DNA from: Inmirania thermothiophila
GTDB taxonomy: Bacteria > Pseudomonadota > Gammaproteobacteria > DSM-100275
Direction: 5' to 3'
Assembly (NCBI RefSeq): GCF_003751635.1
Contig: NZ_RJVI01000002.1
Coordinates: 496,001-560,000 of the forward strand
Length of the DNA: 64,000 nucleotides
Under the pieces are notes generated by a model. The model saw only the letters and a program-made list of their open reading frames with translations, made no database searches and was not told the DNA's origin. The position numbers and the translations under genes were made by a program. The stretch's first letter is position 1; every line of letters begins with the position of its first letter. Below, one piece after another: positions 1,352 through 34,968 of the stretch.

Positions 1352-4300
1352 CTAGCCTTCCCCGCCAGCGCCGCGCGCCGCGCGCAGCAGCCGCGCCATC
1401 TCGGCCGCGGGCACCGGCCGGCCGTAGCGGTAGCCCTGGGCGAGACGGCAGCCGGCCTCGAGCAGGAAACGCTCCTGGGCCTCGGTCTCGACCCCCTCGG
1501 CGATGACCTCGAGGCCCAGGCTGCCGGCCACGGCGATGATCGCGCGGACGATGTCCTCGTCGGCGCCGCCGCCGCCGAGCCCCGCGACGAAGGAGCGGTC
1601 GATCTTGAGGTGATCGGCGGGAAGGCGCTTGAGGTAGCTCAGCGAGGAGTAACCGGTGCCGAAGTCGTCGATGGACACCGCCACGCCCTCCGCCTTGATC
1701 GCCCCGAGCACGGTGACGCTGCGCTCCGGATCCTCCATCGCCGCGCTCTCCGTAATCTCCACCTCCAGCAGCCGCCCAGCGACCCCGTGGCGGCGCAGGG
1801 CCTCGCCGATGCTTTCCGCGAGGCCCTCGTTGCGAAGCTCCACCGCCGAGACGTTGACCGCCACCGGCACCGCGATGCCCTCCCCCTGCCAGCGCGCGAG
1901 CTGGCGGCAGGCGGCCTCGCGCACCCAGCGGTCCAGCTCCCCGATCAGGCCGCCCTCCTCGGCCGCGGTGATGAACTCCCCCGGCGGCACCAGCCCCCTT
2001 TCGGGGTGGCGCCAGCGCACCAGCGCCTCGAGGCTCCGGATCCGTCCCGCGGGCATCTCCACCCGCGGCTGGTAGTGGAGCTCGAGCTCGTCGGCGGCGA
2101 ACGCCCGCCGCAGCGCCTCCTCGAGGGTGAGGCGGCGCGCCACCGCCTCCTCCTCGCCCTGGTGGTAGAAGGCGTGACCGAGACGGCCCCGCTTGGCGCG
2201 GTACATGGCGATGTCGGCCCGCCGCAGCAGGACGTCCACGTCGTCGCCGTCCTCGGGGAAGCGCGCGATGCCGATGCTCGCCCCCACCCGCACCTCCCGC
2301 CCGCCGAGCCGGAAGGGGGCCTCCAGCACCGCCTGCACGCGCTCGGCCACCGAACGCGCCGTCTCCTCGGTGCCGTTCCACAGCACGGCGGCGAACTCGT
2401 CGCCGCCGAGCCGCGCGAGCAGGTCGCCGTTGCGCACCACCCCGCGCAGCCGCTCCCCGGCCTGGGCGAGGAGCCGGTCGCCCACCTCGTGGCCGAGGGT
2501 GTCGTTGACGTCCTTGAAGCGGTCGAGATCGAGATAGAGCACGGCCAGCCGCACCCCGAGCCGCCGCCCCTGCTCCAGCATCTCCACGAAGCGCTCGCGC
2601 AGCATCCGCCGGTTGGGCAGCTCCGTGAGCGGATCGTAGTTGGCCAGACGGCGGATGCGTTCCTCGTAGCGGTGCTGCTCGGTGACGTCCAGCAGCGTCC
2701 CCACCAGCACGCGCTCGCCGTCGATCTCGGCCGCCGACCCGAGCACCTCGACCCGGATCTCGGTGCCGTCCTTGCGCAGGCCGCGGAAGCCGTAGTGGGC
2801 CACGTCGCCGCGCCCTTCCAGGCGCTCGCGCACGCGCCCGCGCACGAGCTCCCGGTCGGCCGGGGCCACCAGCTCGCCCACCTCGCGCCCGACGATCTCC
2901 TCCGGCGTGTAGCCGAAGATCTCGGCGAGGCGGGGATTGACGTAGGCGAAGCGGCCCGCCCGCACGATGTAGACCCCGGCCAGCGAGCGCTCCACCAGGT
3001 TGCGGAAGCGGCGCTCGCTCTCGCGCAGCGCGCGCTCCATGCGCACCTGCTCGGTGACGTCCATGACCAGGGAGGCGATGCCGAGGACGGTGCCGTCCTC
3101 GGCCACGAGCGGGGTGTTGAACCAGTCGCAGAGGATCTCGCGCCCGTCGCGGGTGGCGTTGACGTTGCGCGAGCGCGCCCCGCCCCGCCCCTCCACCAGC
3201 TCGCGCCGGATGCGCTCCACCTCGGGCCGGACCCGCTCGGGCACGATGAGCTCGAAGGCGCTGCGTCCCACCGCCTCCTCCGCCGTGTAGCCGAAGATGC
3301 GCTCCGCGGCGGGATTCCAGCTGCGCACGCGAAGCGCCGTGTCCCACTCGATGGCGCCGAGGGGCGTCTGCTCCACGTGCAGGGCGAGGCGCTGGCGCGA
3401 GGCGGCGAGCGCCTCCACCGTGCGCCGCCGCTCGATACCGAGGGCGAGCGCCCCCGCCACCCGGCGCAGGAAGCCCTCGTCGGCGGCGTCGCGCCGGTGC
3501 CCCTCCGGGAGGTAGAGCAGGAGCACACCCGCGGTCCCGCCGCGGGCGAGGATGGGCACCACGTAGTGCCCGTGCGGCTCCATGGCGTCGTGGCGCCGCT
3601 CGTGGCGCGCGTCGACGCAGGCAGCGTAGACGGGCCTGCGCTCCGCCGCGGCGCGCCCGCACAGGCAGCACCCGAACGGAACCTCGGCGCAGAGGGCCTG
3701 CAGCGCGGGCTCGAGACCCCAGTCCGCCGCCATCCTCAGCCGGCCGCCGTCCTCGGCGAGGAAGACCGCCCCCTTGCGCATCAGCGCCAGCCACGGCACC
3801 TGACACAGGGCCTCGAGGGCGTTGCGGAGATAGGCCTCCATGGGGTGGTCCGAGAGCGCCTCAGCGAGGAGCCGGTTGAGCGCGGCGGCCTCGTCCGCGG
3901 CCCGCCGCACCGAGGTCACGTCCTCGCCCTCGGCCACCATCAGGGCCACCGCCCCGTGCCCGTCCCGAACGGGCGTCACCGCGAGGCTGAGGACGCGCCG
4001 CCCCGCCTCGCCGTCGAGCGCCACCTCGCGCTCGCCGCGCACGCCCGCCGCGGCCCAGGCCACGAGCTCGGCCACCGTCTCGCGGTCCGCCGCCGCCCAC
4101 GGCAGCGCCTCCCACAGCGGCGCCCGCCGCCCGCCGAGGGCCTCGCCGGCCCCGTTCCACCGCATCACCGCACCGTCCGCATCGAGCAGGGCGAGGGCGT
4201 GCCGGCTGTGGGCGAGCACCGCCTCGAGCTCCTCGTGGCGCGCCCGCAGGGCCTGCTCGCGCCGCTCCACCTCGAGCCGAAGGCGCACGTTCTCGCGCAG

Positions 4301-26149: not shown

Positions 26150-26679
26150 CGCGACCGCCCCCGCACCAGGCAGCGCAGCCGCCCCAGCGCGTGCAGCAGG
26201 TAGTGGAAGGCGATGAGGGCGAAGGCCGCGACCATCACCCCGTCCTGGAGCGCCAGCGGCACCGCCCCCCCGCCCCCGGCGCCCCGTTCCATCCAGCCCA
26301 GGCGCGCCGCGTGCCAGGCCACCGCCGCGCTGGCGGCGGCGGCGAACAGGCGCGCAAACCCGGCGCCGGCATCCTCCCAGCGCGCGGGCAAGGCGCGCGC
26401 GAGGACCTCGATGGCGATGTGCCGGTCCTCCCGCGCGGCCACCACCGCGCCCAGGAACACCAGCCACAGCACCACCTGGCGGGCGGCGGGTTCGGCCCAG
26501 GCGAGGCCATCGAGACCCAGGTTGCGCAGCGCCATCGCCGCCGCCCCCAGACCCACGAGCAGCCCCAGGGTGAGCACCAGCACGGCATCCTCCGCCCACG
26601 CCAGCGCCCTGAGCAGGCGCGACTCGCCGGCCTCGCGGGCGCCGGGCCACCACGGCGCGCAGGGCGCGCGGGTGCTCAC
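26146..26679 (-). CDS. dctQ: TRAP transporter small permease (DctQ)
   Basis: 177 residues with four membrane helices (about 28-48, 65-82, 105-125, 140-162) and the family motif REDRHIAIEVL between helices 2 and 3. The GTG start at 26679 has GGGAGGGG upstream and overlaps the dctP stop by four bases. Works with DctM and the periplasmic receptor. Confidence 0.88.
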   Translation of the reverse strand: MSTRAPCAPWWPGAREAGESRLLRALAWAEDAVLVLTLGLLVGLGAAAMALRNLGLDGLAWAEPAARQVVLWLVFLGAVVAAREDRHIAIEVLARALPARWEDAGAGFARLFAAAASAAVAWHAARLGWMERGAGGGGAVPLALQDGVMVAAFALIAFHYLLHALGRLRCLVRGRSR

Positions 26680-27722
26680 CGCCCCTCCCCCCGCAGCTCG
26701 GCGAGCGCCTGCTCGAGGTGGGCCACCCGTGCCGGGTCGACGCCCCCGGTGCGGATCAGCAGCGCCCGCGCCGTCCGCCCCAGCTCCCGCCAGCGGCGGA
26801 GCTCCTCCGGTTCCGGCGTGACGAAGCTCACCCCCTGCGCACGCAGGGCCTCGCGGGCACGCGCCTCTTCCTCGACGTTGCCGCGGTCGATGTCGGCGAA
26901 GGCGCGCCGCAGCGCCTCCACCACCCGCCCGCGGTCCGCGGCGGCGATCCGCGCCAGGGCCTTGCGGTCCACCACGAGGACGGCATAGACGTAGAGCAGC
27001 GGCACGTCCGTGAGATAGCGCACCGCGGCGTTCCATCGCAGCACGATGGCGCCGATGGCCGAGGTCGCCACCGTGTCCACCAGCCCCGTCTGCAACGCCG
27101 CGTAGACGTCGCCGAGGGGCAGCGGGACCACCGTGATGCCGGAGGTGGCCGCAAGCACCGCCTTCATCACCGCCCCGGCGAGAGGATCACCGGCCGGCAT
27201 CCAGACCTTGCGGCCCTCCAGGTCGGCCACCGCGCGCACCGGCTCGCGCGACATCACGTAGGCGAAGCCCCCGCCGGCGATGCCGATGCCCTCGAGCCCG
27301 TGGGCGGCAAGGCCCCCCAGGAGCTCGCCGTCGAAGCGGGCCCGCACCCGCGCCACCTCCGCGTGGGAGCGGAACAGGAACGGCAGGCTGTAGAGCTCCA
27401 GCTCCGGCGAGAGGGCGGCGAGCGAGCCCGCGGTGAAGATGCCGCCGTGGAGCTGACCGATGCGCATCTTGCGCAGGACGCTGACGTCGTCCCCCATCAC
27501 CCCGCCACCGAAGAGGCGCAGCCCCACGCGGCCGCCGGTGGCCTCGCGGATCTCCGCGTCCGCCTGCCGGAGCCGGGCCATCCAGGATGAGCCCTCGGGG
27601 GCCAGCGTCGCGAGCTTGAGCTCCAGGGCCGCCGCCGGGGTCGCCGCAAGCCCCAGGAGCATCCCGGCCGCCAGGGCCCGCAGGCGCCGCCATCCTTCCT
27701 CCCTCCACCGTCTCGTGCCCAT
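26676..27722 (-). CDS. dctP: TRAP transporter substrate-binding protein (DctP)
   Basis: 348 residues with a signal peptide (about 1-36, ending AATPAAA). The mature protein starts LELKLATLAPEGSSWM; GRVGLRLFGGGVMGDDVSVLRKMRIGQLHGG and PLGDVYAALQTGLVDTVATS are the TRAP receptor motifs. This subgroup usually accompanies TatT-type lipoproteins, and the TatT gene is just upstream here. The ATG at 27722 fits GGAGCGGGAG before it. Ligand unknown; this branch is often linked to non-acidic or hydrophobic ligands, which is an inference only. Confidence 0.9.
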   Translation of the reverse strand: MGTRRWREEGWRRLRALAAGMLLGLAATPAAALELKLATLAPEGSSWMARLRQADAEIREATGGRVGLRLFGGGVMGDDVSVLRKMRIGQLHGGIFTAGSLAALSPELELYSLPFLFRSHAEVARVRARFDGELLGGLAAHGLEGIGIAGGGFAYVMSREPVRAVADLEGRKVWMPAGDPLAGAVMKAVLAATSGITVVPLPLGDVYAALQTGLVDTVATSAIGAIVLRWNAAVRYLTDVPLLYVYAVLVVDRKALARIAAADRGRVVEALRRAFADIDRGNVEEEARAREALRAQGVSFVTPEPEELRRWRELGRTARALLIRTGGVDPARVAHLEQALAELRGEGR

Positions 27723-27753
27723 CTCCCGCTCCTCTCGTCCCCTTCCGGGGTCC

Positions 27754-28626
27754 TCAGCCTCCGTCCCCGAAGACGCGGTCCGCCTCCTCCAGGAGCGCCC
27801 GCGCACGGCGCCTCGCCAGCACGTTCTCGAGGGTGTGACGGCCGGCCTCGGGATCCGCCGCGAGCACCTCGCGCAACAGACGGTCGTGGAGGCGCCGATC
27901 GCCCACGGCCCGCGCCAGGTGCTCGGCCATCAGGACCTTCACCATGAGCCGCTTCCCGCCGCTCAGACGCAGCGCCCGCTCGAAGTGCCGGCGCGCCGCC
28001 TCAGGGTCCCCGCCGAGGGCGGGCGGCACCAGGGCCGAGAGCACGCCGAGCTGGAGCTGGACCCCGCCGTCGTCGTGATCCGGCGCCAGCGCCGCCACCC
28101 GCCGAAGCACCAGCTCCGCCTCGGCCAGCTCGGCGCGGGCGCCCCAGTCCTCCCGGCGCGCCTCGATCCAGACCAGCCACGCGGTGGCGAGGGCATAGAG
28201 GGGCTCGACATCCTCCGCGGTGGCCCCCGCGAGGACCGCCCGCAAGCCCTCGCCGCGCAGGGTGCAGCCCGTGCCGGAGCGCAGGCACGCCGCCCGCCGG
28301 GCATAGCCGAGGGCCCGCTCGCTCAGGCGTCGGCGGCGGGCGGGATCCCGTACCAGCGCCCCGGCGTAGGCCGCATAGAGGCGGGCCGCCCGCACGAGGG
28401 CGTCCCCGTCCCTCGGCGCGGCCTGCACCGCGGCATCGGCGAGGATCAGATAGCCGGGGAGCGCGGCCGCCACCAGCTCCGGGTCGTCGTGGCGCATGGC
28501 CGCCTCCGCGACCCCTTCCGCCAGGCTGCCGCCCGCCCGCTGCACCAGCCCGCTGCAGCCGGTGGCGGCGAGCATCGCCGCCAGCGCCACCGCGTTCCGC
28601 CTCGCGCTCGTCCTCTCCATGCCCAT
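27754..28626 (-). CDS. TRAP-associated TatT lipoprotein
   Basis: 290 residues: a lipoprotein signal (LAAMLAATGC, lipobox ATGC) followed by an all-alpha TPR-like body, including GYARRAACLRSGTGCTLRGEGLRAVLAGATAEDVEPLYALATAWLVWIE. This is the TatT (TRAP-transporter-associated) family; in Treponema pallidum TatT binds its TRAP receptor as a trimeric assembly. It would sit on a membrane facing the periplasm and hand ligand to DctP. Two ATG codons (28626 and 28620) are both possible starts. Confidence 0.8.
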   Translation of the reverse strand: MGMERTSARRNAVALAAMLAATGCSGLVQRAGGSLAEGVAEAAMRHDDPELVAAALPGYLILADAAVQAAPRDGDALVRAARLYAAYAGALVRDPARRRRLSERALGYARRAACLRSGTGCTLRGEGLRAVLAGATAEDVEPLYALATAWLVWIEARREDWGARAELAEAELVLRRVAALAPDHDDGGVQLQLGVLSALVPPALGGDPEAARRHFERALRLSGGKRLMVKVLMAEHLARAVGDRRLHDRLLREVLAADPEAGRHTLENVLARRRARALLEEADRVFGDGG

Positions 28627-28808: not shown

Positions 28809-29723
28809 ATGTCGCGAAGCCGTTCGTTTCTCCACGCCGCCGTCGCCGTCGCCGCGCTGCTGCTCCTGGCCGGGCTCGCCCCGCCGCGGGCGGCCGCGGC
28901 GACCGCGACCCTGATGGCGGCAAACCCCTGCGCCATGGGCAACCCGTGCGCCATGAAGAAGGGCATGGGCAACCCCTGCGCCATGGGAAACCCCTGCGCC
29001 ATGAAGAAGGACATGGGCGCCAACCCGTGCGCCATGGGCAACCCCTGCGCCATGAAGAAGCCCATGGGCAACCCCTGTGCCGCGGGCAATCCCTGCGCGG
29101 CCAAGGCGAAGGGTGACCCGCGCCTCGCGCGCATGATCACGCGCCCGGCCGGGACGCACCTCTTCGACCGCGCCTCACGTGCCGAACTGGTGCGCCTCGG
29201 GGCCCGGCTGTGGAAGGACACCTCCCTGAGCACCAACGGGACGTCCTGCAACAGCTGCCATGCCAACGGCGCGCTCTTCAACAAGGCCACCTTCACCAAG
29301 CCGTTCCCGCATCGCGTCGCCATGGCCGCATCCCAGGCCGGTAAGGCCACCATCGACGCCGACGAGATGGTCCAGATCTGCCTGGTGGTGCCCATGCAGG
29401 GCAAGCCGCTTCCGTGGCACTCCAAGGAGCTCGCGGCCCTGACCTACTACACCACCGACGTGGTGCAGAAGCAGTTCATCCGGACCGCGATGGCAGGCGG
29501 CAACCCCTGCGCCGCAGGCAACCCGTGCGCCATGAAGAAGGGCATGGGCAGCAATCCCTGCGCCATGGGCAACCCCTGCGCCATGAAGAAGGGCATGGGC
29601 GGCAATCCCTGTGCCGCCGGCAACCCGTGTGCGACCAAGAACCCCTGCGCCGCCAACAAGGGCTGGGGCAATCCCTGCGGGATGAAGAAGCGCATGGGCA
29701 ATCCGTGCGCCGCCGGCTACTGA
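28809..29723 (+). CDS. Monohaem cytochrome c flanked by NPC-rich Cys/Met repeats
   Basis: 304 residues: signal peptide (about 1-31), then eight NPC units (about 39-100) patterned NPCAMG/NPCAMKKGMG. A single cytochrome c domain follows (about 103-228; haem site CNSCH near 157, likely Met ligand in VVPMQGKPLPWH). Nine more NPC units end the protein (about 232-304). There are 17 NPC motifs in all, rich in Met and Lys. Secreted to the periplasm or anchored on the surface. Paired Cys and Met at regular spacing suggest soft-metal binding (Cu+, Ag+) or a cross-linked scaffold, but nothing proves this. The cytochrome part resembles the c-type domain of sulfur/cytochrome accessory proteins. A ribosome site AAGGAG precedes the start. 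Confidence 0.85.
   Translation: MSRSRSFLHAAVAVAALLLLAGLAPPRAAAATATLMAANPCAMGNPCAMKKGMGNPCAMGNPCAMKKDMGANPCAMGNPCAMKKPMGNPCAAGNPCAAKAKGDPRLARMITRPAGTHLFDRASRAELVRLGARLWKDTSLSTNGTSCNSCHANGALFNKATFTKPFPHRVAMAASQAGKATIDADEMVQICLVVPMQGKPLPWHSKELAALTYYTTDVVQKQFIRTAMAGGNPCAAGNPCAMKKGMGSNPCAMGNPCAMKKGMGGNPCAAGNPCATKNPCAANKGWGNPCGMKKRMGNPCAAGY
28923..29108 (+). repeat. Coding direct repeats, N-terminal NPC block
   Basis: Near-identical units of about 18 and 30 bases (AACCCCTGCGCCATGGGC type) encode eight NPC motifs. Slippage or unequal recombination in this block would change the repeat number. Confidence 0.85.
29502..29720 (+). repeat. Coding direct repeats, C-terminal NPC block
   Basis: The same repeat units reappear after the cytochrome domain and encode nine NPC motifs up to the stop codon. 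The two blocks share long identical stretches, so recombination between them could delete the haem domain. Confidence 0.85.
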
Positions 29724-29818: not shown

Positions 29819-30637
29819 GTGCTGGGACGGCTCTGGACCCTCGCACGGTCGACGGGTCCCGCGGCGGCCTTCGCGACCATGGTCACGATCCCCGCGGGAG
29901 CCTTCTGGATGGGCAGCACGCAGGAGGAGCGCGCCCTGGCCTATGCCCTCGACCTCGCCCGCGGCAGCACCGCCGCCCGCGACTACGCCTGGTTCGAAAA
30001 CGAGACCCGCCGCCGCGTCCACCTCGCCGCCTTCCGGATCGACCGCACCCCGGTCACCCAGGCCGACTACGCCCGCTTCGTCGCCGCGACCGGCCACCCT
30101 GTCCCGACGGTGCGGGCCGCCGAGTGGCAAGGCTACGGGCTCGTCCACCCCTATGCGACCGCCCTCCGTTTCGTCTGGCGTGACGGCCGCCCTCCGCCCG
30201 GGCGGGCGGATCACCCCGTGGTCCTCGTCACCCACGCCGATGCGGTCGCCTACTGCCGCTGGCGCGGCGCGCGCCTGCCCACCGAGGCCGAGTGGGAGAA
30301 GGCCGCACGGGGCACCGACGGCCGCTACTGGCCCTGGGGGAACCGCTTCGACCCCGTCCGTCTCAACAGCCGCGACGCCGGCCCCTTCGAGACCGAGCCG
30401 GTGGGCAGCCGCCCCGCCGGGGCGAGCCCCTGGGGCGTGCTGGACATGGCCGGACAGGTCTTCGAATGGACGGCGACGCCCTGCCCGGACCGCGACGGTG
30501 CCTGGATCGTCAAGGGGGGCTCCTGGGACGACTTCCCCGGGGTCACGCGGGGGGCGGCCCGCCACTGCCGCCCCGCCGGCCTCAAGCACGTCCTCATCGG
30601 CTTCCGCTGCGCCGCCGACGCCACCCCACGGCCGTGA
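29819..30637 (+). CDS. SUMF1/FGE-fold protein, non-canonical active site
   Basis: 272 residues (or 252 from ATG 29879) with the formylglycine-generating-enzyme sulfatase fold: VTIPAGAFWMGS, RIDRTPVTQADYARFVAATGH, CRWRGARLPTEAEWEKAARG, VLDMAGQVFEWTATP, KGGSWDDFPGVTRGAARHC and the terminal GFRCA. True formylglycine-generating enzymes have a copper-binding Cys pair in the segment after GGSW; here only one Cys is in that area. It is therefore more like NirV or other SUMF1-domain accessory proteins. No ribosome site is clear, so the start is uncertain. It stands 96 bases after the NPC cytochrome and before a multihaem cytochrome, suggesting a periplasmic redox role. Confidence 0.8.
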   Translation: MLGRLWTLARSTGPAAAFATMVTIPAGAFWMGSTQEERALAYALDLARGSTAARDYAWFENETRRRVHLAAFRIDRTPVTQADYARFVAATGHPVPTVRAAEWQGYGLVHPYATALRFVWRDGRPPPGRADHPVVLVTHADAVAYCRWRGARLPTEAEWEKAARGTDGRYWPWGNRFDPVRLNSRDAGPFETEPVGSRPAGASPWGVLDMAGQVFEWTATPCPDRDGAWIVKGGSWDDFPGVTRGAARHCRPAGLKHVLIGFRCAADATPRP

Positions 30638-30743: not shown

Positions 30744-31919
30744 ATGAACCGGATCGTCGCCGTCCTGTTGCTCCTCCTCGCCGGCGCCTCCGCCCAGGCC
30801 GCGGGCCTGGACGCCTTCCTCGCCCGGCACTGGGCCGATCCCCTGCCGCCGCAGGGCGAGCCGCCGCCCGGATACAGCCCCCTCGAGGCCCGCCTCGACC
30901 CCGAGGCCTGCGCCGCCTGCCACCGCGCCCAGTGGGAGGCGTGGAAGGGAAGCCGGCACGCCCGCGCCATGGGGCCCGGGGTGCTGGGCCAGCTCCTCAC
31001 CTTCGCGCCAGAGGCGGCCGCGGCGTGCCGTCGCTGCCACGCGCCGCTCGCGGAACAGGACCCCGCCGCCGGCCCCGCCGCCGAGCGCCTGCAGCGCCAG
31101 GGTCTCGTCTGCGCCGCCTGCCACGTGCGCGCCCACGTGCGCTACGGCCCGCCCCCGCGGCGCGACCCCGACGCCCGCGGCCCCGTGGGCAGCTCGGGCC
31201 CGCACGGCGGCTTCGTCGCCACGCCCGCCTTCGAGCAGTCCGCCTTCTGCAGCGTCTGCCACCAGTTCGGCCCAGACGGCTACGCCCTCGAGGGCAAGCC
31301 TCTTGAGAACACGGTGGAGGAATGGCGCACGAGTGACTGGGCCGCCAAGGGCGTTCAGTGCCAGGGATGCCACATGCCGGAGCGCGAGCATCTCTGGCGC
31401 GGGATCCACGACCCGGACACCGTCGCCCGCGCGGTGACCGTCGACGTCGATTTCCAAGAGGCCTCCGCCAGGCGCGTACGGGCGACCATCACCGTGCGCA
31501 ACACCGGCACCGGCCACCATTTCCCCACCTACGTCACGCCGAAGGTCTTCCTCCGCGCCGTCCTCGTGGACGCCGCGGGGCGCGCCCTCGGCGAGACGCT
31601 GCAGGAGGCGGTGATCGGCCGCGAGGTCACGCCGGACCTCTCCGCCGAGGTCTACGACACGCGCATCCCCGCGGGCGAGGCCTTCGCCGCGCTCTACGAC
31701 GCCCCGCGCCCGGCAGGCGTCGCGGCCCTGCAGGTCTGGCTCACGGTGGACCCGGATCACTTCTACCGGCGCTTCTTCGAGTCGCTTCTGCCGCAGATGC
31801 CCGACGGCGAGCCGCAGACGCTCATCGCCCTCGCCCTGGACGAGACCCGCCGCGCCCCCTTCGACGTCCTGCGCCGGCAGATCCCGCTGCCGCCGCCGGC
31901 CGCGCCCGGCGGGGACTGA
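30744..31919 (+). CDS. Periplasmic pentahaem cytochrome c
   Basis: 391 residues with a signal peptide (about 1-19). Five haem sites: CAACH, CRRCH, CAACH, CSVCH and CQGCH, all in the first 210 residues. The spacing resembles cytochrome c554/octahaem-type multihaem proteins. The C-terminal half (about 225-375) has no haem and reads as a beta-sandwich-like domain, beginning ARAVTVDVDFQ. The start has CAGGGAG seven bases upstream. Probably shuttles electrons between the quinone pool and a periplasmic enzyme; partner unknown. Confidence 0.85.
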   Translation: MNRIVAVLLLLLAGASAQAAGLDAFLARHWADPLPPQGEPPPGYSPLEARLDPEACAACHRAQWEAWKGSRHARAMGPGVLGQLLTFAPEAAAACRRCHAPLAEQDPAAGPAAERLQRQGLVCAACHVRAHVRYGPPPRRDPDARGPVGSSGPHGGFVATPAFEQSAFCSVCHQFGPDGYALEGKPLENTVEEWRTSDWAAKGVQCQGCHMPEREHLWRGIHDPDTVARAVTVDVDFQEASARRVRATITVRNTGTGHHFPTYVTPKVFLRAVLVDAAGRALGETLQEAVIGREVTPDLSAEVYDTRIPAGEAFAALYDAPRPAGVAALQVWLTVDPDHFYRRFFESLLPQMPDGEPQTLIALALDETRRAPFDVLRRQIPLPPPAAPGGD

Positions 31920-31938: not shown

Positions 31939-33147
31939 ATGGCGCCCGTGACCCGGAAAGCCTCCGTGACGACAGGGCGGATCCGCTCCGCCCTGCCCTT
32001 CGCCGCCGCGGCCGCCCTCACCGCGCTGGGGCTGCACGTGCTCTGGCGTCACGGCCCCCGTCTCGCCGCCCTCTACGCCATCGCCCTCGCCCTTGGCCTC
32101 GCCCTGCACCACGCCTCGTTCAGCTTTTCCGGGGCTTACCGGGCATTGTTCACGGAGCGGCGCACGCAGGGCGTGCGCGCCCACATCCTCCTCATCGCCC
32201 TCGCCACCGTGCTCTTCGCCCCCTTCCTCGCCATGGGGCAGGCCTTCGGTCACCCGCTCTACGGCGCGCTGGCCCCCCTCAGCCTGTCGGTGCCGGCGGG
32301 CGCCTTCCTCTTCGGGATCGGGATGCAGATCGGCGACGGCTGCGCCTCGGGGACCCTCTACACCGCGGGGAGCGGCAATCGCAAGATGGCGCTGACCCTC
32401 GCCGGCTTCCTGGCCGGATCGCTCCTCGCCACCTTCCACGCCCCCTTCTGGTGGGGCGTGCCGAGCCTCGGCACCGTGGACCTCGGCCGCACCCTGGGCT
32501 GGCCCGCCGCGGTGGCGCTGCAGCTCGGTGTGCTGGGGCTCCTCGATCGGCTGCTGGTCCGCATCGACGCCGGCCGCCGCCCGCAGCCGCTGCAGGCCCA
32601 CTGGCTGCGCGGCCCCTGGCCGCTCGCCGCCGGGGCGGCGGCCCTTGCCCTGCTCAACCTCGCCACGCTGCTGGTCTCGGGCCACGCCTGGACCATCGCC
32701 TGGGGGCTCACCCTGTGGGCGGGCAAGATCGCCACCGCCCTCGGCCTCGACCTCACCGCCCACGCCTTCTGGCGCGGCGGCTACACCGAGGCCGCCCTGG
32801 GTCGGAGCATCCTCGCCGACGATACCTCCCTCATGGACCTCGGCATCATCCTCGGGGCGACCCTGGGCGCGATGCTGGCGGGCCGCTTCCCGGAGGGGCG
32901 CTGGCCGAAGGCACGGCCGCTGCTGGGGGCGCTGGTGGGCGGTGTCCTCATGGGCTACGGCGCCCGCATCGCCTTCGGCTGCAACATCGGGGCCCTGTTC
33001 TCGGGCCTCGCCTCCTTCAGTCTCCACGGGTGGGTCTGGATCGCCGCCGCCCTGCCCGGGGTCTGGGTGGGGATCCACCTGCGCCCGCTCTTCGGGCTCT
33101 CCGGCTTCCCGGAGCGGGCCGGCGCCGCCGGGCTCAGCACTCGATGA
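31939..33147 (+). CDS. YeeE/YedE-family sulfur-compound transporter
   Basis: 402-residue membrane protein with about nine to ten helices in two similar halves, each with a conserved cysteine loop: [16 protein letters not shown] (first half) and [16 protein letters not shown] (second half). These are the hallmark Cys motifs of TsuA-type thiosulfate importers. It probably moves thiosulfate or a related sulfur species into the cell. It follows the pentahaem cytochrome by 19 bases, so it may be cotranscribed with it. Its 3' end overlaps the 3' end of sdaA by 14 bases on the opposite strand. Confidence 0.88.
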
Positions 33148-34506: not shown

Positions 34507-34968
34507 CTACCGCCCGGCGTCGGCGACGATGCCCGCGAGGACGGCATCCAGCTCCGCCGCCATCCGATCCAGCTCCGCCACCTCGTAGGGGGCGAACACC
34601 GCGCTCGGGAGGCGGTAGGTGAGGCGCGCGGTCCCGTCCGGGCGCTCGGTGACGTAGAGGCGCAGCGGCGCCTCGATGCCGGCGGCGACGCTGGCGCGCA
34701 GCATGCGCACGGCATAGCGCGGCGCGAAGACCATGATCACCCGGTTGCCGGGCAGGGTCTCACCGATGGCGCGGGCCCCGCAGTCGGCGCAGGCGACGGC
34801 GACCACGCCGAGGCCGTGGGCCCGGACCGCCCGCTGCAACGCCTCGACGTAGGCGGCGAAGGGACGCCCGGTGTCGATGACCCGCGTGCCGGGATAGGGG
34901 GTCGGGTTCTCGCCGCGGGCGACACCCGCCGCGAGGAGCACGAGCGCGAAGACCGTGCGGCGCATCAT
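34507..34968 (-). CDS. DUF302 secreted protein
   Basis: 153 residues: a short signal peptide ([19 protein letters not shown]) followed by a DUF302 domain (about 38-125, e.g. [23 protein letters not shown] and [20 protein letters not shown]). Family function is not established; it is often near sulfur and copper genes. Two Cys in a CADC pattern sit mid-domain. Ribosome site AGGAGGA before the ATG. Confidence 0.8.

Follow-up and report, generated by a model that had tools for sequence, protein, structure and literature searches.

An exported cytochrome whose single haem domain is flanked on both sides by tandem cysteine repeats is encoded in the 64 000 nt stretch of Inmirania thermothiophila DNA analysed here (the window). 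The architecture is real, widespread and apparently undescribed, and the protein is best explained as belonging to a new subfamily of SoxA-type, Cys-ligated cytochromes that is set apart by its arms. The ORF (28809–29723, forward strand) encodes 304 aa and its ATG is preceded by a Shine–Dalgarno-like aggaaggag. An earlier note on this DNA had described a secreted haem protein lying between two Cys-repeat arrays, with 17 NPC units, 8 before and 9 after one CNSCH domain. The motif positions bear this out: NPC units start at residues 39, 45, 55, 61, 72, 78, 88 and 94 in the N-terminal arm, and at residues 232, 238, 249, 255, 266, 272, 278, 288 and 298 in the C-terminal arm. The N terminus, MSRSRSFLHAAVAVAALLLLAGLAPPRAAAA, reads by eye as a Sec signal peptide. 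CNSCH is the sole CxxCH motif, and the 20 Cys residues of the protein comprise the 17 within NPC units, the 2 haem thioethers and Cys191.

Shuffling the protein 10 000 times produced at most 4 NPC, as against the 17 present. The DNA pattern for NPCAM, AAYCCNTGYGCNATG, occurs nine times in the window, always within this gene (expected 0.00), and Tandem Repeats Finder reports periods of 48 and 51 bp with 85–86 % matches. The 17 units use 7 synonymous spellings of NPC, which shows that selection keeps the peptide and not the DNA alone. The Inmirania genome, 2.6 Mb in five contigs, gave no second NPC-repeat gene. On the reverse strand at 26676–28626, divergent genes of a TRAP transporter (DctP and the TAtT T-component) adjoin the armed cytochrome; they are not recurrent in relatives.

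Table 1. Features of the armed-cytochrome gene and of its neighbours in the window
Feature	Position	Strand	Basis or remark
Probable Sec signal peptide, residues 1–30	28809..28898	+	Charged start, 15-residue hydrophobic run and AAA cleavage-like site, by eye from the translation
N-terminal thiol arm, 8 NPC units, residues 39–99	28923..29105	+	Repeat and motif positions
Predicted SoxA/TsdA-type monohaem cytochrome c domain, residues 101–228	29109..29492	+	PF21342, AlphaFold2, Foldseek
Haem c attachment motif CNSCH, residues 147–151	29247..29261	+	80/80 relatives, but built into the search pattern
Cys191, predicted axial haem ligand, equivalent to the catalytic Cys of TsdA/SoxA	29379..29381	+	80/80, outside the search pattern; aligned in 17/17 rows
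C-terminal thiol arm, 9 NPC units, residues 232–304	29502..29720	+	Repeat and motif positions
SUMF1/FGE-fold protein, next in operon	29879..30637	+	PF03781, E=1.4e-46
Pentahaem cytochrome c with C-terminal beta domain	30744..31919	+	Takes the place of DUF6969 as partner in part of the family; neighbour in 37 loci
YeeE/YedE sulfur transporter	31939..33147	+	PF04143, E=4.5e-61; 19 bp after the pentahaem gene
DUF302 protein	34507..34962	-	PF03625, E=5.5e-9; other strand, further off; neighbour in 22 loci

On profile and model grounds, the haem domain is assigned to a divergent SoxA/TsdA type of Cys-ligated cytochrome c. The Pfam family PF21342 (SoxA-TsdA_cyt-c) spans nearly the whole domain (E=9.5e-5) and matches 7 of 8 family members; the window domain scores 20–23 bits against a cut-off of 27, and one relative (G014), at 29.1 bits, lies above it. 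Pfam CCP_MauG matches a 35-residue stretch around CxxCH. An AlphaFold2 model of the domain built from 80 sequences has a pLDDT of 94.9 and a pTM of 0.88. When this model was compared with the PDB using Foldseek, ranks 1–11 were taken by eight TsdA and then three SoxA entries, with probability 1.00; the E-values for these matches, 0.007–0.2, place the kinship at the level of the fold. The half of the domain that follows the haem motif gave no meaningful PDB match when compared alone.

Cys191 is invariant in the best 80 relatives although it lies outside the search pattern, falls at the alignment position of the Cys ligand of TsdA/SoxA in each of 17 rows, and is predicted to be the axial haem ligand. 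In the TsdA of A. vinosum, the catalytic Cys haem ligand forms an S-thiosulfonate intermediate (PMC4423706). According to the same paper, both TsdA and SoxA invariably have an Arg four residues before it (Arg119), and the Ser four residues after it (Ser127) belongs to TsdA only (PMC4423706). Among the best 80 relatives of the armed cytochrome, residue 187 (Cys191−4) is never Arg (Met in 75, Phe in 3, Val and Ile in 1 each), and residue 195 (Cys191+4) is Pro in all 80. TsdA is the best Foldseek match and shares the haem-domain fold, CxxCH and the catalytic Cys ligand, but carries two haems and lacks both the long tandem-Cys arms and the invariant His168. Membership of TsdA was rejected because the Arg at Cys−4, the Ser at Cys+4 and a second haem motif are all absent. 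SoxA of SoxAX likewise has the same haem-domain fold (1h31_A, r.m.s.d. 2.8 over 93 columns) and the Cys ligand; the armed cytochrome differs from it in that no SoxX was found nearby and the invariant Arg is lost. A separate SoxA with a single CNTCH is present in the same genome, within a soxYZAXB cluster (G000:C3:306497–309626; L115 and on). With the Arg lost and the Ser replaced by Pro195, the substrate is not inferable from TsdA, and the residues kept would allow SoxA-family chemistry at most, not that of a standard thiosulfate enzyme.

Relatives were collected with the search pattern [STG]NG[LMT][SA]Cx[STA]CH, so that conservation of those residues is built in. A full-length protein query of genome contigs returned no relative; a query with the haem-domain alignment did. 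The earlier note had proposed a search for NPC repeats next to CxxCH, and such relatives do exist: the haem domain recurs in at least 313 stretches across GTDB species genomes, and of the 80 analysed, which are the best (most query-like) of these, 65 have two or more NPC on both sides and 4 have none. The 80 are spread over beta-, gamma- and alphaproteobacteria, Magnetococcales, Rokubacteria, Methylomirabilota, Tectomicrobia, Nitrospinota and Polarisedimenticolaceae, and metagenome-assembled genomes supply many of these sequences. Among 369 genomes of the same class as Inmirania, armed cytochromes occur in 7 and stand-alone NPC peptides in others. The note knew of no characterised protein with this layout, and none was found in an open-licence library, whether by way of the repeats, of DUF6969 or of SoxA with YeeE. 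A plasmid search gave one weak match only, and comparisons with viral folds and with defence systems gave no match.

The number of NPC units per arm ranges from 0 to 17 in the best 80 relatives; NPCAAK, with 421 copies counted, is more frequent than any other unit. Their C-terminal arms together hold 428 Cys, 433 Lys and Arg, 62 Met, and 6 Asp and Glu. By residue composition, therefore, Cys with positive charge is the rule of the family. The earlier note had taken the regular Cys and Met as looking like soft-metal binding; Met as a conserved part of such a motif is not supported by the comparison, and its scarcity in relatives makes the Met of the window protein a local flavour. One relative (L003 in G051) has an in-frame TGA in place of a Cys codon inside the armed-cytochrome frame (2248–2250, reverse strand), where a near-identical adjacent repeat has TGT; an assembly error, a pseudogene or, less likely, selenocysteine could account for it. 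A repeat-free monohaem cousin with a REMINWC motif, in which the Arg is also absent, was seen in L004, L005, L031 and similar loci, and in two genomes it shares a small operon with genes for a DUF1566-like protein and a Tat protein resembling metallophosphoesterases.

The genes around the relatives fall into several recurrent groups. Clustering the ORFs of 83 loci placed DUF6969 in 39, a pentahaem cytochrome in 37, an ECF sigma factor in 29, YeeE in 28 and DUF302 in 22. A 152-aa secreted protein of no family is a neighbour in 20 of the 83; an example (L056, 11416–11883) has invariant C40, C61 and C143 (YSCPLNxTPDY) and no Pfam or PDB match. Further recurrent neighbours are DUF3179, a YiiX-like protein, CcdA, thioredoxin, glutaredoxin and the FGE-fold protein. 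Sulfur neighbours are commoner than metal-resistance neighbours. The earlier note had proposed a check for co-occurrence with copper or sulfur genes; the neighbour clusters that recur include YeeE, and none of them could be identified as a copper ATPase, CusA or CopA. The YeeE/YedE protein of the window retains the Cys-containing motifs GDGCASG and FGCNIG, and its family imports thiosulfate or sulfane sulfur (PMC11582611).

The order haem protein–FGE–pentahaem is repeated in another locus (L035), and an FGE-like ORF precedes the pentahaem gene in G256. True formylglycine-generating enzymes have a catalytic Cys pair and recognize a CxPxR substrate motif. From reading of the sequences, the FGE-fold protein of the window has no Cys pair after GGSW and the arms contain no CxPxR, and oxidation of the NPC cysteines by an FGE was rejected on both counts. 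All 24 pentahaem relatives have exactly five CxxCH, and their profile matches Thermochromatium tepidum c552 (5ze8, 2.9e-13) and MccSep (9wt8) in the PDB. The likeness to the c552/ExtKL-type family is limited to this neighbour and does not extend to the armed cytochrome. In several genomes, distant pentahaem relatives (L187–L193, L195) adjoin an exported rhodanese-like protein; the one tested with Pfam matched PF00581 just below the cut-off.

DUF6969 and the pentahaem gene tend towards mutual exclusion: both are present in 5 loci, DUF6969 only in 31, the pentahaem gene only in 24 and neither in 10 (p=2e-6). DUF6969 is absent from the Inmirania genome, and the window thus represents the pentahaem version. 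Thiol repeats also occur apart from the haem. In four genomes without an armed cytochrome, DUF6969 directly follows an NPC peptide. Under a fixed rule, a tandem-Cys peptide lies directly upstream of DUF6969 in 22 of 29 loci of the class, a descriptive count, as the rule was drawn up after the loci had been seen; the same rule gave 0 of 17 at SoxA/TsdA loci and 0 of 11 at distant pentahaem loci. By eye the count is 26 of 29, with contig-edge and non-PC repeats included. Genomes that carry NPC have DUF6969 or a close pentahaem subclade in 12 of 14 cases, against 25 of 355 other genomes (p=1.3e-11, although kinship of the genomes overstates their independence). The occurrence of tandem-Cys peptides and DUF6969 without the cytochrome suggests that the arms are useful apart from the haem.

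The small exported or membrane-anchored tandem-Cys peptides that precede DUF6969 (PF22308; L150–L178, e.g. L168, 1145–1459 in the DUF6969 orientation) carry repeats of the types [NS]PCxL, NPCAAK, NPCAPSARGG and CCG, in genomes with and without the cytochrome. Their units vary in charge (NPCAAK, SPCGLD, NPCSLDED, NPCAPSARGG), and [NS]PC recurs. In one genome (G362) a rhodanese adjoins the NPC–DUF6969 pair. The reverse arrangement is also found: next to bare Comamonadaceae-type cytochromes (L085, L092, L107), a divergent neighbour encodes an exported Cys/Lys-repeat peptide of the KCAPKCGAK type, and another cytochrome (L061) has fused GCAPKGG arms instead of NPC. What stays constant is a SoxA-type haem, predicted to be Cys-ligated, together with a series of thiols on the same chain or on a separate one.

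The closest mechanism is that of SoxAX, which attaches sulfur oxidatively, through a haem-ligating Cys, to SoxYZ with its one Cys on a flexible swinging arm. By analogy with that logic, with another substrate in view of the lost Arg, the preferred reading, held tentatively and at a little under an even chance, is that SoxA-type haem chemistry loads or oxidizes sulfur on the protein's own thiol arms in the periplasm. The haem would oxidize a reduced sulfur species (sulfide, a persulfide, a thiol or another sulfane-sulfur donor) via Cys191. The sulfur or disulfide would then pass by thiol exchange to the many Cys of the arms, or of separate Cys-repeat peptides, which would serve as a flexible periplasmic carrier of sulfur or thiols. 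Sulfur uptake could proceed through YeeE, electrons may exit via the neighbouring pentahaem cytochrome, and the CcdA, thioredoxin and glutaredoxin encoded near some relatives may reset the arm thiols. SoxYZ, as a thiol carrier partnered with a haem protein, is alike by analogy, but SoxY has one swinging-arm Cys and the armed cytochrome would have many on its own arms.

Several observations argue for sulfur loading. The modelled haem fold matches that of the sulfur-chemistry enzymes TsdA and SoxA, with the reactive Cys kept, and thiols are the constant partner of the haem, whether as fused NPC, as fused GCAPKGG or on an adjacent peptide. The Lys-rich, nearly acid-free composition of the arms would favour reactive thiolates. 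The gene neighbourhood adds YeeE, DUF302, the rhodanese of G362, the genome's own soxYZAXB and, at some loci, CcdA, thioredoxin and glutaredoxin. Against it, all 80 aligned relatives lack the anion-binding Arg of TsdA and SoxA (PMC4423706) and have Pro195 where TsdA has Ser. Bufferin genes lie near about 5 loci and true mercuric reductase near 2, and the tandem-Cys peptides that accompany DUF6969 without the cytochrome show that the arms have a use apart from it. SoxB is not significantly enriched in armed-cytochrome carriers (5 of 7 genomes against 142 of 362; p=0.12), and a tie to the Sox pathway through SoxB co-occurrence was rejected on that result.

A soft-metal trap is the main rival and, on present evidence, an unlikely one. 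In the periplasm, Cu(I), Hg(II), Ag(I) or Cd(II) would be captured by the arm thiols (and, in the window protein, by Met), the redox state of the arms being set by the haem domain, in the manner of a periplasmic metallothionein or bufferin. The regular Cys with Met and Lys of the window protein, the ECF sigma factors near 29 loci, the BufA-BufB-BufC-DoxX clusters adjoining five loci (L063, L066, L099, L068, L047) and true MerA genes 3–5 kb off in two (L081, L100) are consistent with it. However, the conserved Met alongside Cys that would mark a copper store is not seen in the relatives' arms, the recurrent neighbour clusters yielded no recognisable gene for a copper ATPase, CusA or CopA, and the haem domain is of a sulfur-chemistry type. 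Bufferins (BufA, the MNIO BufB, and BufC) are likewise small exported Cys-rich proteins with a cytoplasmic partner, but the BufA-type motif is absent from the armed cytochrome, BufB and BufC occur in few loci, each with its own BufA precursor, and no ORF of a BufB (DUF692)/BufC cluster lies near the window gene. Modification of NPC by an MNIO of the bufferin type was rejected for the loci checked, in which a separate BufA is present. The MerA-like neighbour cluster was rejected as a marker of MerA, as only 2 of its 12 members are true MerA.

Rather less probable is a system similar to those of ribosomally synthesized and post-translationally modified peptides (RiPPs). The [NS]PC units would form a precursor core whose Cys are modified in the cytoplasm before export, by DUF6969 in many relatives and by a different enzyme in the window, for which the FGE-fold protein is a possible candidate; once modified, the arms would either react with sulfur or bind metal. 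By eye, DUF6969 lacks an export signal. Its invariant positions number 38, with His, Glu, Asp and Tyr prominent among them, and its confident model (pLDDT 92.9) matches no fold in the PDB. The upstream position of the tandem-Cys peptides fits such a role, as does the persistence of [NS]PC where the charge of the repeat varies, which would be expected of a recognition motif. The window genome, however, lacks DUF6969, its FGE-fold protein lacks the Cys pair of true FGEs, and a role in chaperoning or in metal loading would suit DUF6969 equally well.

It is highly improbable that the arms are an electron-conducting tether or a cross-linked surface fibre, in which disulfides between arms would keep haems in proximity or connect them electrically to the pentahaem cytochrome. 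In its favour, the arms look flexible and are long, the pentahaem partner is present in 37 loci, and nanowires have been proposed for a related family of pentahaem cytochromes that has an Ig-like domain (PMC11976967). However, roughly half the loci have DUF6969 without a pentahaem cytochrome, each chain has a single haem motif, and no sortase-like or polymer-forming domain was seen. Thiol chains are not known to conduct electrons. Least probable of all, low-complexity drift would make the arms slippage-prone repeats with no specific chemistry, as their tandem and widely variable number might suggest, but the synonymous variation beneath a fixed peptide, the supply of Cys arms in trans where the cytochrome is bare and the tie of NPC carriers, in related genomes, to DUF6969 or the pentahaem subclade all stand against it.

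A broader reading, possible though on balance doubtful, is that a widespread and undescribed extracytoplasmic thiol system is involved. It would consist of exported tandem [NS]PC or KCAPKCGA peptides with either cytoplasmic handling by DUF6969 or pairing with the pentahaem cytochrome and, in hundreds of species, a fusion to a SoxA-type haem acting on its own arms. Such a protein would in effect unite SoxA with a SoxY carrier on a single polypeptide, or else represent a new class of peptides modified on Cys.

Members of the SoxA family are known to join thiosulfate oxidatively to a second thiolate. The armed family keeps the reactive Cys but has lost the substrate Arg, and its SoxA-type haem domain is fused to as many as dozens of thiols, in many Proteobacteria and in some other phyla. 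Its partner DUF6969 has no fold known from the PDB, and neither the arms nor their partnership with DUF6969 has a described parallel in the open-licence papers searched. The family provides a testable context for DUF6969, DUF302 and the 152-aa secreted protein, and its culturable carriers include Acidovorax soli DSM 25157 and Stutzerimonas stutzeri CLN100. Through the armed family, the management of sulfane sulfur, thiol stress or soft metals in the periplasm may become accessible to study.
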